Shown here one piece after another: positions 6,765 to 22,200 of a DNA stretch of 41,472 nucleotides. Numbering within the stretch: position 1 is the stretch's first letter; each line of letters starts with the position of its first letter. Both the position numbers and the translations under genes were made by a program. A model generated the notes under the pieces. The model did not search any database. It was not told the origin of the DNA and worked only from the letters and a program-made list of their open reading frames with translations. Source of the stretch: an uncultured bacterium (lineage in GTDB: Bacteria; Patescibacteriota; Gracilibacteria; Absconditabacterales; Absconditicoccaceae); assembly GCA_947169045.1 (NCBI GenBank), contig CAMVOC010000002.1, forward strand, positions 81,762 through 123,233. Direction: 5' to 3'.

Positions 6765-7307
6765 TTAACATCTTTTCTTAATCTCAATATAGCCAATATG
6801 ATGAGTATGCGAACCTATTGGTGCATGATTTTCTTGATGAGACATTTCCTCCTTATATTCAATAAGAAAATTTTTCTGATCTAAAAAATCATCAAAAGTA
6901 TAAGAAGATAAAGGATTTTGACTCATTATTTCATCATCAGAGAAAAAGAAAGACAAAACCATCACTCAACCATCTTCTAAAAGTTCAATTAATTTAGGCA
7001 ATAACGTCTCAAGAAAAAATTTCTTTTTCAAAAAAGGAACAACATTCAACAGTAACAACAAAGAATATTTTCAATTTAAAATTGAATCCGGAAGTTCTCT
7101 CAAATCAGCTTTTATAAACGATATATTTGGATGTGATTGCAAATATTCAGGCCATAACCAACTCTCTTTAGATTGATTATCTAATGCAATAACCTTATTT
7201 CAAAAACTTGCACAAAAAATACTATATCTACCATCTCAGGCTCAAAGATCAAGAACTGTTCATTTATGATTAGAAAGAATTTTCGCCAAACGCTCACAAA
7301 AAATCAT
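6765..7307 (-). CDS. class I SAM-dependent methyltransferase, tellurite-resistance TehB-like
   Basis: 180 residues. Rossmann-fold motif I reads TVLDLGAGDGRYS near residues 17-29, followed by the acidic KVIALDNQ at the end of beta-2. In all, six TGA codons are read as glycine, two of them inside motif I (L-G-A-G-D), so a standard-code annotation would lose the gene. Later motifs include KADLRELP and LLLLLNVVPFLKK with LLPKLIELLEDGG, the usual layout for small-molecule methyltransferases. The substrate is unknown. The gene sits downstream of the terminator of ribosomal block B, so it needs its own promoter, which I do not see clearly. Confidence 0.8.
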
Positions 7308-9916: not shown

Positions 9917-10083
9917 AGGAAACAATAACAGAAAGGGTAAAACAAACAGTAAAAAAAATTCTGATTTCCGATCCACGAGAGCCTAGAAAGTAAGCACTCA
10001 TTTATCCACGGAAACCCCATCGCCCTCTAGCCAAATCCCATCATGAACTGGTTGTAGAGACCGACTTTTGAAACTAGATATAC
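9917..10083 (-). promoter_or_regulatory. long leader of the rpmC operon with the conserved two-domain RNA
   Basis: About 167 bases of untranslated leader. Positions 10077-9960 hold the same structured element as the tuf leader: domain P1 is closed by CUAGUU/GGCUAG with an inner CAAA/UUUG stem and the loop sequence CUACAACCAGUUC; domain P2 is closed by GGUUUCCG/CGGAAAUC with an inner GAGUGCUU/AGGCUCUC stem. The 3' strand of P2 runs into the element ATCAGAATTTTTTTT close to the start codon, so folding could affect initiation. Confidence 0.65.
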
Positions 10084-10089
10084 CCTAAT

Positions 10090-10117
10090 AATATAACAAT
10101 TTAGAAGTAAAATGCAA
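10090..10117 (-). promoter_or_regulatory. promoter of the rpmC operon
   Basis: On the - strand: TTGCAT (10117-10112), 16-base spacer, TATATT (10095-10090). The -35 lies back to back with the -35 of the orphan gene, inside the inverted repeat ATGCAA-N8-TTGCAT. Confidence 0.75.
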
Positions 10118-17241: not shown

Positions 17242-18417
17242 TTACTCAAGAACTTTAGTTACCACTCCAGCTCCTACAGTTCTACCTCCTTCACGGATAG
17301 CGAATCTCAAACTGTCTTCGAGAGCTACAGGGTAAATCAAATCAACGATAATTTTGGCATTATCACCAGGCATAATCATTTCTACACCAGGTGCTAATTC
17401 AATATTTCCAGTTACATCAGTAGTTCTGATGAAGAACTGAGGTCTATATCCTGCCATAAATGGAGTATGTCTTCCTCCTTCTTCCTTTTTCAATACATAC
17501 ACTTCAGCTTCAAACTTATGAGCAGTTTTTACAGAACCTGGTTTACAAAGAACCTGTCCTCTTTCGATAGAGTCTTTATCAACTCCTCTAAGCAAAAGTC
17601 CAACGTTCATACCAGCTTCAGCTTGATCAAATGCTTTATGGAACATCTCTACTCCAGTAACTACTGTTTTAGTAGGTTCAGCTCCAAGACCAAGAAGTTC
17701 AACTTCTTCGTTCATTTTAACGATTCCTCTTTCAATTCTTCCTGTTGCAACAGTTCCTCTACCTTTAATAGAGAAAACATCTTCTACAGGCATCAAGAAA
17801 GGTTTTGCTGAATCTCTTTCAGGAACAGGAATGTAAGTATCCAAAGCATTCAAAAGTTCCCAAATACATTTAGCAGCTCCTTCAGCATCAGTAGGATTTT
17901 CTACTGCTTTCAAAGCAGATCCTCTAATGATAGGACAATCTTTGTCATAGTGATGTTTAGCCAAAAGATCTCTAATTTCTTCCTCAACGAGATCGATCAT
18001 ATCAGGATCGTCTACCATATCACATTTGTTAAGGAATACAACGATCTTTGGAACATTTACCTGGAAAGCCAAAAGAACGTGTTCTCTTGTCTGAGGCATA
18101 GGTCCATCAGTAGCAGCAACTACAAGGATAGCTCCATCCATCTGAGCAGCTCCAACGATCATATTTTTTACGTAATCGGCATGTCCTGGACAATCAATAT
18201 GAGCATAGTGCCTAGTTTCTGTCTCATATTCCACGTGCCTTGTAGCAATAGTAATTCCTCTTGCCTTTTCTTCAGGCGCGTTGTCGATTTGATCATAAGC
18301 CGTAGCTTGTGCAAATCCTTGCGTAGCTGCAACCGTCGTAATTGCTGCTGTCAGTGTAGTCTTACCGTGATCAACGTGACCGATAGTACCTACATTAACA
18401 TGTGGTTTTGTTGCCAT
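17242..18417 (-). CDS. tuf: elongation factor Tu
   Basis: 391 residues. GTPase that carries aminoacyl-tRNA to the ribosome. G1 is [10 protein letters not shown]3 DCPGHADY, G4 NKCD, and the C-terminal barrel ends GVVTKVLE. The ATG at 18417 gives [18 protein letters not shown]. No TGA codon is used for any of its many glycines. First gene of the large ribosomal block; strong promoter and conserved structured leader upstream. Confidence 0.99.
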
Positions 18418-18575
18418 AGTTAATAAAAATAAGTAATAAAAAGAAATCTGATTTCCTGTCCTCGATAGCTTCCAAATCAATGAGCCATCAATCAACTGCG
18501 GAAATCAAGTTTATCACTAGCCACGTTTTCACAGATGAGAACTGGTTGTAGCGACAAACGTCTAAAGACTAGAAC
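18418..18575 (-). promoter_or_regulatory. long leader of the tuf-ribosomal operon with the conserved two-domain RNA
   Basis: Leader of about 158 bases. The element at 18572-18447 shares CTACAACCAGTTC, TGGCTAG and GGAAATCAGA with the rpmC leader. P1: CUAGUC pairs with GGCUAG, inner ACGUUU with AAACGU. P2: GAUUUCC pairs with GGAAAUC, inner GAUGGCU with AGCUAUC. The paired bases differ between the two leaders but pairing is kept, which supports a real RNA structure. It ends in the ATCAGATTTCTTTTTATTAC start-proximal element. Confidence 0.68.
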
Positions 18576-18581
18576 ACTATC

Positions 18582-18609
18582 ACTATACGAATCTCCTATG
18601 TAATTGCAA
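18582..18609 (-). promoter_or_regulatory. promoter of the tuf operon
   Basis: TTGCAA (18609-18604), 16-base spacer, TATAGT (18587-18582), preceded by the CTC seen at other -35 boxes here. Confidence 0.75.
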
Positions 18610-18876: not shown

Positions 18877-21800
18877 CTATTTACCAGCTAATCTAAAGTC
18901 TCCCCATTTGATAGGATCAGCATAAGTGCTGTCGATAGCGTAAGTAAATGTTCCATCTTCATCATCGATAGAATAATTCAATCCATCGAGAGTCATAGTC
19001 TTAGAAGCATTTACATTAAGCTTCAATTCAACTGGATCATCTCCCTTTGCAAGAGTAATAGCAGAGAAAGTTCCAGTTTGTTTAGTTCCTTCAGTAATAG
19101 TAACAACATTACCAGCGATAGAAGCACCAGCAACGTTAGTAGCTACTATACTATCAAGAGTAATTGGAGTATCATATCCGTTAGAGATTTGGATAATCAT
19201 CTCGTTCTTATCAGAATTTACGCTCTTTACAGTAATAGTAGGGATAACTTTTACGAAGAAGTATTTCAAGCTAAGAGCTCCTGTCTTAGTTGCAGATCCA
19301 TCAATATCGTAGCTATCAATGGTGATTGCCGTTCCTGTTGGAGCATCAGTAGGGATGCTAGCTTTAATCTCTACAGTGTGTTTTCCTTCTGCAGCGTAGA
19401 AGTTGAATCCTGTAAAGCTAAGTTTATTTCCTGTTGTAGGTGATATAGCAGCAATAGCCTGTACATCATCTCCATCAATAAACAACTTATGAGAAGTAGA
19501 TCCAGAGAATGCACCACTTAATACAAGACCGCTAAGTTCAGCAAATCCATTAGTAACATTAATGCTGAATGTTGCCAAAGTCTTGTTAGATCCAGCTATA
19601 GCGATAGTATTAGCGCTTCCAGCATTTGAAACATTAATACTTGCAGCAGGAGAAACTTGAAGATCTACAGTAGTAACTGTATTAGACTTCGTATCATTTC
19701 CATCTAATTTTCCATCTGCGTAGATATCGAGAGCGATCTTTCCTGCAGCAGCACCATTCGTAGCGTCAAGATATGCTTCAACTTTAACTTTCGTAGGAGT
19801 TTCTCCAATAGTTCCAAGACCTTGATTTACTTTACAAGAAGTAAATGCATTACCAAGACCTTCAGTTCCACAGCTATAACTCTTTCCATTAATGTATACA
19901 GTAAGAGCTAATTTAGTATTAGCATTCAATGTGTTGCTATTAGCAGCAATCACAATAGATCTTCCTGCAACATCTCCTTTCTTTGCAACCAAGTCTCCTT
20001 CGAATACAACTCTAGTAGCAGCGTCTCCAACAACTACTTTCTGAGCTGAAAGATTAGAAGTTTCAGTAAGAGAGAAAGTAGGAGTCTTTACATTAATTCT
20101 AGCTAACTTAATTACTCCAGCAATAGCTTGTCCTGGAGCAAGAACTTCTCCATTGTTAAGGAATTCAACATTAGATGCGAAAGAACCAGCAGTAATGTTA
20201 GAGAAAGCGATTGCATTTCCAACAGCATTAGTTTCAAGATCTACTAATACTCTAACAGATGCATCACGACTTACTGCGATTTCATCAATTGTCCAAATTC
20301 CTGGAGTTGATTCATCTAATCCATATCTAGAACCAGCTACTTCAATAGACATATTCTTAATAAGTGTATTACCAGCAGGAACGCTGATAGTAAGATCTTT
20401 CAACAATACAGGTTCTGCTACTTCGAGAACACCTTTTGCAACTACAACATCGTTAGATCCTGTACCTGCATCTATAGATGTAGCGAAAGAATTGTCGTTA
20501 ACAAATCTGATCTTTCCTCCTTCTATTGCATAAACAGAAGATTTAGCTCCAGCTACAGCATCGTTAGTAGTTCTAAACTTAGTTGCTTTTTCTTCAGCTA
20601 CAAGATCAGAAGTCTTTTTAAGTTCTAAGTTAACATAAGAAGGAATTCTCTCAAGAGAGTCGATCTCTCCCATAATAGTATAGGTAGCAGTTCTTCCTCC
20701 TGCGATCTCATCGTCATCCAAAGCAATAACCATAGTTTTTCCATCAAGAGTAACATGCTTTGAAACAACTTTTCCATCTCTATATACTTGAACATTGCTA
20801 AGCAATCCTTCAAGATCGAATCCAGAAGCATTGTTCAATACTACACTTCTTATTACGATTTCTTTGTCTTCTTTTCCAGTAGTGTCGTATACATTTTCGA
20901 TTTTGAATTCTCCAAATGTGTAAGTCTTCTGAGATCCAAGCTTATAAGTAGCATCATCACCGTTTACAGCAGTAAACTTAGCAACAGCTACTGTATAGTT
21001 TACAGTCTGGTAAGTAGTAGTCTCTCCTTCTACGCTAACATTTTTAGCTGTAGAGGAAGCATCAACAAGTTTGAAAGCAACTTGAGATCCTGCAGCAGCA
21101 CCATTAAGTTCTACTACGAGATCAAGAACTTCATTAGATTTTACTGTAAATCCTCTTGTGAAGTTAACAGTTACTTTTCCATCTGAAGAAACTTTTCCTT
21201 TAGAAGAGATAGCTTCACCATCTTTCTCGAATCGAACTCCAGAGATATCAGCTCTGCTAGAAAGTCCAACTCTCTCCAAAACTATAGAATTAATAGTGAT
21301 TGCTTCTGAAGCTTTAAGAGCTACTGAGTTGAATACAACAGTTCCTTTCATAGGAGCAGATTTAATCTGTGAAGAGTAATCAGCAACAGAAACTTTTAAG
21401 TCTCCAGCCTTTACTACAGTTGTATCTATCTCATCTGCATGTTCTTTACAGATTGCAGGACATTCAGAAGTTTCAAGAGCACATGCAAGAGCAACTAAAG
21501 GATCTTTACATTGAGAAAGTCCTCCAGCGATTACGTCTTCATTAGATTCAGCTCTCTGAAGCATAATCATTACATATCCTCTAACTTCTTTCGTGTTCTC
21601 AGCATCATCGATTTTAGTCATGATACCTGCATTTTTAAGTGCATTAAGGTGAGCTAGATAATAAGGAGTACCTCCATCATTTTCATCTCCTCGGATAGCT
21701 CTAGAAAGAACAGTACCGAATTCAGCACGAGATACAGTATCAAATGGACGGAAAGCAGAAATTCCTACTCCCATAAGACCCATTTGACAAGACTTAACGA

Positions 21801-22113
21801 TCCAGTCAGCTAAGTCTCCTTTTACTGAAGCCGTGTCAGTAAATGTACAAGACTTTGAAGTGTCTGGAGTTATTCCAAGAACAGATTCAGCCCATGCTCC
21901 AAGCATTTTAGCCATTTCAGCTCTGGTCATAGCACCAAACATGTTTGCATTTTCTATTGGGTACTGAGTAGTAACCCCAGCGCTATACGCGTATGCGTAT
22001 GCATCTTCCATTTCTTCTCCGAAAACAGTTGCACCGAGCACGTTTACAGGAAGAAGTGTTTGTGCTGCAAGAATCACTCCTGAAACTGCAGCGAACATCT
22101 TTTTTAAAGACAT
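18877..22113 (-). CDS. large secreted SLH-domain protein, probable S-layer or surface protein
   Basis: 1078 residues. A signal peptide of about 27 residues (MSLKKMFAAVSGVILAAQTL, then AxA-like) is followed by three SLH-type repeats (about residues 37-80, 89-150 and 153-192; AMTRAEMAKML and TVSRAEFGTVLSRAI are typical), which bind pyruvylated wall polysaccharide. The rest is a Thr/Ser/Val/Gly-rich series of beta-sandwich-like segments with few cysteines. A monocistronic gene with its own promoter, an 80-base leader and a strong terminator. None of its dozens of glycines uses TGA, as expected for a highly expressed gene. The csaB-like gene in this window could make its anchor. Confidence 0.88.
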   Translation of the reverse strand: MSLKKMFAAVSGVILAAQTLLPVNVLGATVFGEEMEDAYAYAYSAGVTTQYPIENANMFGAMTRAEMAKMLGAWAESVLGITPDTSKSCTFTDTASVKGDLADWIVKSCQMGLMGVGISAFRPFDTVSRAEFGTVLSRAIRGDENDGGTPYYLAHLNALKNAGIMTKIDDAENTKEVRGYVMIMLQRAESNEDVIAGGLSQCKDPLVALACALETSECPAICKEHADEIDTTVVKAGDLKVSVADYSSQIKSAPMKGTVVFNSVALKASEAITINSIVLERVGLSSRADISGVRFEKDGEAISSKGKVSSDGKVTVNFTRGFTVKSNEVLDLVVELNGAAAGSQVAFKLVDASSTAKNVSVEGETTTYQTVNYTVAVAKFTAVNGDDATYKLGSQKTYTFGEFKIENVYDTTGKEDKEIVIRSVVLNNASGFDLEGLLSNVQVYRDGKVVSKHVTLDGKTMVIALDDDEIAGGRTATYTIMGEIDSLERIPSYVNLELKKTSDLVAEEKATKFRTTNDAVAGAKSSVYAIEGGKIRFVNDNSFATSIDAGTGSNDVVVAKGVLEVAEPVLLKDLTISVPAGNTLIKNMSIEVAGSRYGLDESTPGIWTIDEIAVSRDASVRVLVDLETNAVGNAIAFSNITAGSFASNVEFLNNGEVLAPGQAIAGVIKLARINVKTPTFSLTETSNLSAQKVVVGDAATRVVFEGDLVAKKGDVAGRSIVIAANSNTLNANTKLALTVYINGKSYSCGTEGLGNAFTSCKVNQGLGTIGETPTKVKVEAYLDATNGAAAGKIALDIYADGKLDGNDTKSNTVTTVDLQVSPAASINVSNAGSANTIAIAGSNKTLATFSINVTNGFAELSGLVLSGAFSGSTSHKLFIDGDDVQAIAAISPTTGNKLSFTGFNFYAAEGKHTVEIKASIPTDAPTGTAITIDSYDIDGSATKTGALSLKYFFVKVIPTITVKSVNSDKNEMIIQISNGYDTPITLDSIVATNVAGASIAGNVVTITEGTKQTGTFSAITLAKGDDPVELKLNVNASKTMTLDGLNYSIDDEDGTFTYAIDSTYADPIKWGDFRLAGK

Positions 22114-22200
22114 GTGTGTAATAAAATAATGATATAAAAGTCACAAAATTCTGACCAAACAGGGCCGTCATTCTGTCTCCACAGAAATAGACTGTCGTCT

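Follow-up and report, generated by a model that had tools for sequence, protein, structure and literature searches.

The tuf and rpmC operons of the window

The stretch of DNA analysed here (the window, 41,472 nucleotides, from the genome designated G000) carries two related RNA elements on its minus strand, one upstream of tuf and one upstream of rpmC, each the head of a run of ribosomal-protein genes (Table 1; boundaries are those of the covariance models). Each element consists of two hairpins, P1 and P2, and a U-rich tract. The tuf start codon lies 20 nt 3' of the U-tract and that of rpmC 34 nt 3' of its U8, and no promoter-like site was found between the U8 and the rpmC start codon. The sigma-70-like site upstream of the tuf element resembles by eye a site that lies 3' of the element in G003 and others. 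With a promoter-like site upstream and none before the start codon, both elements of G000 have, judged from their sequence context, the geometry of true leaders.

A first-pass annotation of this DNA had described a structured leader at 18447-18572 and a second copy, sharing five sequence blocks in the same order, at the head of the rpmC operon. Both copies, with the blocks in that order, were confirmed on the minus strand, and the second does head another r-protein operon. The tuf element lies where it was placed, but its 5' end had been set 13 nt too early and most of the U-tract had been missed.

Table 1. Elements, promoter-like sites and genes in the window.
Feature	Position	Strand	Evidence or remark
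tuf-operon element copy (P1, P2 and U-tract)	18438..18559	-	Model R1 E 8.9e-20, R2 98.4 bits (both: training-set member)
P1 hairpin, tuf copy: GUUUGUCGCUA [CAA] CCAGUU...UGG [C] UAGUGAUAAAC, asymmetric internal loop UA-CAA-Y	18509..18559	-	
P2 hairpin, tuf copy: GAUUUCC...GGAAAUC, inner GAUGGCU/AGCUAUC	18450..18506	-	
U-rich tract AUUUCUUUUU directly 3' of P2, tuf copy	18438..18447	-	
rpmC-operon element copy	9951..10065	-	R1 E 1.8e-21, R2 99 bits (both: training-set member)
P1 hairpin, rpmC copy	10019..10065	-	
P2 hairpin, rpmC copy	9963..10016	-	
U8 tract, rpmC copy	9951..9958	-	
Sigma-70-like promoter TTGCAA-16-TATAGT of tuf operon, upstream of element	18582..18609	-	Sequence scan
Sigma-70-like promoter TTGCAT-16-TATATT upstream of rpmC element	10090..10117	-	Weak alone; position and 16-nt spacer match other copies
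tuf (EF-Tu), first of tuf-rpsJ-rplC-rplD-rplW-rplB-rpsS-rplV-rpsC-rplP	17242..18417	-	Pfam
rpmC (L29), first of rpmC-rpsQ-rplN-rplX-rplE-...-rpsH	9713..9916	-	Pfam
628-aa gene between rplP and rpmC	10218..12104	+	Divergent; no Pfam match
1101-aa reading frame upstream of tuf operon	18877..22182	-	No Pfam match
Methyltransferase-like gene directly after rpsH, inside the r-protein gene run	6765..7307	-	TehB-like Pfam match

An RNA family found in one bacterial family

A seed alignment of four copies (the tuf and rpmC copies of G000, the tuf copy of G001 and the rpmC copy of G006) yielded 34 pairs in RNAalifold, 12 of them with two-sided changes. The covariance model built from it (R1) recovered tuf-upstream copies in genomes that had not been used (e.g. 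L010, L013, L022) at E-values of 3e-7 to 5e-5, which are rough, coming from a short calibration. These homologues upstream of translation genes in other genera place the similarity of the two window copies above chance and bear out the first-pass annotation. A second model (R2), run over 49 sampled genomes of the family, mostly incomplete MAGs, identified 29 copies in 27 genomes from 7 of the 22 genera, with a single copy in 25 of the 27 carriers. About half of the sampled family genomes (27/49) are therefore carriers, among them the tiny alternative-code bacterium G000. The wide occurrence in Gracilibacteria and Absconditabacteria once envisaged did not emerge: a third model (R3), over a 288-genome sample of the class, found copies in these 27 genomes, every one from this family, and in none of the 241 others.

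Simpler searches recovered less. Whole-genome BLAST with the tuf copy returned only the self-match, the second copy being too diverged, and the exact motif CTACAACCA...TGGCTAG occurs among the relatives only in G000 and G001 because it lies outside the conserved part. MAFFT alignments misplaced P2 of distant copies, and iterated covariance models were used instead.

Rfam 15 gave no relevant match (T-box, known r-leaders, 6S, SRP) over the window at the gathering threshold, nor for the tuf element and its relatives at relaxed E-values. The elements make up an RNA family that Rfam lacks, in line with the earlier remark that no known ribosomal leader or riboswitch was recognised in them. A divergent small SRP RNA was considered, since RF00169 was not found in G000, and was rejected, the features of SRP RNA not being seen. 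RF00169 has no match in the whole G000 genome and matches in 11 of 14 control genomes.

Two hairpins supported by covariation, and a U-tract

The two-domain architecture of the first-pass annotation is borne out by covariation, as is its claim of selection on RNA structure: pairing in 12 and then in 29 sequences beat all 500 shuffles on five measures. The covariation score was 0.652 for 12 copies (0.250 shuffled, 0.07-0.18 with slid partners) and 0.608 for 29 copies (0.235 and 0.09-0.16 respectively). Changes on both sides were seen in 30 of the 34 pairs across the 29 copies, comprising 10 of 11 pairs in P1 helix 1 (91% of cells paired), all six in P1 helix 2 and 14 of 17 in helices 3 and 4 of P2; the 29-copy alignment was fitted to the model and is biased toward structure to that extent, and the raw sequences show the matched changes too.

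The covarying P1 pairs GUUUGUCGCUA with UAGUGAUAAAC in the tuf copy and GUCGGUCUCUA with UAGAGGGCGAU in the rpmC copy. The P1 originally drawn (CUAGUC/GGCUAG with inner stem ACGUUU/AAACGU) is rejected: forcing it worsens the fold by 6.1 (tuf), 5.6 (rpmC) and 8.2 kcal/mol (G001 tuf), and CUAGUC is absent upstream of both G006 copies. P1 contains an asymmetric internal loop that recurs among the copies and is flanked by a U-A and an A-U pair; for the most part its 5' side reads UA-CAA-Y (with AAA, UAU, UAA or CAG for CAA in some copies) and its 3' side R-(AU, C or A)-UA, i.e. R-N1-2-UA. For P2 the original drawing of closing and inner stems agrees with the supported fold, and across the family this hairpin is closed by GGUUUC/GAAAUC-like pairs around a GAUAGC/GCUAUC-like inner stem.

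P2 runs into the U-tract, a feature that had gone unremarked. A U-rich tract stands directly 3' of P2 in all 29 copies, 18 of which have T7 or longer (background 0.85% per 18-nt window); the remaining tracts are U4-U5 or UUUUGUUU, the last replacing U8 in genus g13. P2, with its AU-rich base, was not detected by a simple terminator scan. Folding of truncated leaders revealed no conserved switch between P1 and P2: the mean alternative P1:P2 pairing over the 29 copies is 0.04, and a single copy (L089) exceeds 0.2. On this measure a conserved folding switch, suggested at the outset, is rejected, and so is a conserved antiterminator. In L086 (G009) the 3' strand of P2 has a second potential partner nearby, CAUUUCG; the resulting hairpin, CAUUUCG-UC-CGAAAUG, may be an alternative specific to this lineage.

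Position relative to genes and promoters

All 29 copies head translation operons: 26 precede tuf (including that of G004, which stands at the end of its contig, tuf being deduced from the overlap of this end with the contig that begins with tuf), two rpmC and one rplB. Upstream of most tuf copies is tRNA-Pro, often together with tRNA-Phe and tRNA-Ile. A TTGnnn-16/17-TAnnnn site lies between U-tract and gene in 25 of the 29 copies. In G000 (twice), G001 and G009 the promoter-like site is upstream of the element instead, with none in the 20-73 nt that separate the element from the start codon, while both copies of G006 and those of G036 and G048 are flanked by such sites on both sides. Single sites are weak when set against shuffles, and it is their regular position and spacing that make them believable as promoters. 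The distance from element to start codon ranges from 20 to 176 nt, and in none of the copies does element sequence overlap the start region.

The leader position assigned by the first-pass annotation, which had not recorded the downstream site, appears to hold for the two G000 copies; the majority of relatives have the element upstream of the tuf promoter-like site and outside the proximal 5' UTR. Where that site stands 3' of the U-tract, as it does for 25 of 29 copies, the element may be missing from the main tuf transcript. The promoter appears to have switched sides relative to the element between lineages, which provides a natural experiment.

Operon breaks and a probable duplication of the element

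Operons are broken at different points, and some fragments have retained the element and others not, which offers further natural experiments. G001 has rpmC directly after rplP with no element between them. In G000 the 628-aa gene splits the operon at this junction, and rpmC after the split has its own promoter-like site and its own element. The tuf-S10 operon of G006 is in at least four pieces (L180, L181, L186), of which rplB-rpsS-rplV-rpsC-rplP and rpmC-rpsQ-rplN each have an element, and tuf, standing alone, and rpsJ-rplC-rplD-rplW have none. Since the lone tuf lacks the element and the rplB-rplP and rpmC-rplN pieces each carry one, the element appears tied to the r-protein genes. By eye, the region upstream of tuf in G006 (L009) resembles a transposase remnant. 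Nearest to each other are the rpmC-operon copies in G000 and G006 (67% identity) and, likewise, the tuf copies in G000 and G001 (66%), against 63% between the two copies within G000, which suggests that the duplication of the element predates the split of G000 and G006 and that both copies stayed structured.

A proposed mechanism and its alternatives

Covariation, the U-tract and the linkage to tuf/S10-type operons, all evident from comparison of the copies, incline us somewhat towards a clade-specific leader of r-protein operons that works in cis and attenuates transcription through P2 and the U-tract. The element would then probably be a brake on ribosomal-protein synthesis by transcription control. 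In the scheme of ligand binding, termination and read-through that we infer, an operon-related factor, most likely an r-protein in excess over rRNA, would bind P1 and stabilise RNA polymerase paused at P2, and transcription would end in the U-tract; with the factor taken up by rRNA, polymerase would read through into the r-protein genes. As no conserved P1/P2 switch was found, we prefer a direct hairpin/pause mechanism, like that of L4 and NusA on the Escherichia coli S10 leader and lacking a conserved antiterminator, over an antiterminator. Both tuf and rpmC of G000 appear dependent on read-through. For the majority of relatives, gating by the element would be limited to transcription that arrives from the tRNA operon or an upstream promoter, and a second promoter would feed tuf directly. 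The promoter-like sites 3' of the U-tract in 25 copies, the g13 tracts, with UUUUGUUU in place of U8, and the AU-rich base of P2, missed by the terminator scan, are points against an attenuator.

One strand of P1, UACAAU(G), corresponds to what we take to be positions ~1235-1241 of 16S rRNA, spanning the contact of S7. That contact is A1238-U1240 (PMC3548175). The 16S rRNA of the relatives reads AUACAAUGGG at the UACAAUG stretch, and a 7-nt match of this kind has a chance probability of ~9% per 16S. Several copies differ from the S7-binding site of 16S rRNA and str mRNA in reading UAUAUC, UAAAAC or UACAACC, the partner strand has no clear match and the junction is not matched. The resemblance to the S7 site is a lead only.

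Because most elements lie between tRNA-Pro and the tuf promoter-like site, a free-standing small RNA stays a candidate, unlikely but to be taken seriously. Such an RNA of ~110-160 nt, comprising P1 and P2 as its terminator, would be transcribed either from a promoter of its own or together with tRNAs. It would act in trans, for instance through contact with an r-protein, and its adjacency to r-protein operons would be an inherited neighbourhood. The single copy in nearly all carriers fits this reading, as do the promoter-like sites 3' of the element or on both sides of it and the usual position after tRNA-Pro with an end in U-runs. It would, however, put highly expressed genes behind a terminator in G000 (twice), G001 and G009, and it sits poorly with the second copy that G000 and G006 each carry at the head of a further r-protein operon. 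A dual-use RNA, which we regard as rather unlikely, would serve some lineages as a leader controlled by read-through and others as a separately transcribed small RNA located before the promoter. It would sense an r-protein (perhaps S7, by way of the rRNA-like UACAAUG loop) and set the levels of EF-Tu and r-proteins.

The arrangement of tRNA-Pro upstream and a tuf promoter-like site downstream would also suit a plain constitutive terminator or insulator between the tRNA operon and tuf, with P1 as a 3'-end processing or stability hairpin. We consider this improbable: the rpmC and rplB copies have no upstream tRNAs, some copies have no downstream promoter-like site, and the recurrent loop and covariation of P1 would be superfluous for a terminator. 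Translational control, in which a protein bound to the element blocks initiation at a nearby start codon, is a common mode among r-leaders (PMC7247131, PMC10931766) and would be compatible with the close start codons of G000; across the copies, however, the variable distance to the start, the promoter-like site that usually intervenes and the lack of overlap with the start region make it very improbable.

Comparison with known leaders

The nearest mechanism in the literature to the cis-acting attenuator is that of the E. coli S10 leader, where L4 acts with NusA (PMC10931766). Both stand at the head of an S10-type operon and have an upstream structured domain followed by a hairpin and U-tract, and, as a further likeness, no conserved alternative antiterminator was found in the present element. 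The E. coli leader combines attenuation with translation control. The present element differs in that it has no Rfam match, has tuf as the first gene of its operon and often lies upstream of a second promoter-like site. It heads an L4-encoding operon in G000 (tuf...rplD), but the rpsJ-rplC-rplD-rplW fragment of G006 is free of it, which weakens simple autoregulation by L4 and argues against L4 as the sole autoregulator.

The rpsL-leaders are attenuators before rpsL-rpsG-fusA-tufA, with antiterminators proposed in each type and a precedent for two similar leaders inside one operon (Naville and Gautheret, 2010, PMC2965389). They share with the present family a hairpin and U-run before a translation operon and the occurrence of two similar elements at two sites of one operon, but the present element has no conserved antiterminator and belongs to a tuf-S10 operon rather than to str. 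A covarying structure that precedes r-protein genes and is confined to a single clade is likewise a property of the r-leaders of Eckert and Weinberg (2020, PMC7247131), whose main text contains no occurrence of CPR or tuf; the variable order of promoter and element sets the present family apart. We found no report of an r-protein leader in this lineage, with its TGA = Gly alternative code, in the open-access literature searched, and the 29 aligned copies offer a ready model for the study of how ribosome synthesis is balanced in minimal candidate phyla radiation genomes with this code.

The tuf leader in genus g18 (L023, L024) has no match to the element models. It consists of a promoter-like site followed by a classical hairpin (UUUGC-GAGAA-GCAAA) and then U8 ahead of tuf, an arrangement with the look of an independent, putative attenuator of the same operon.
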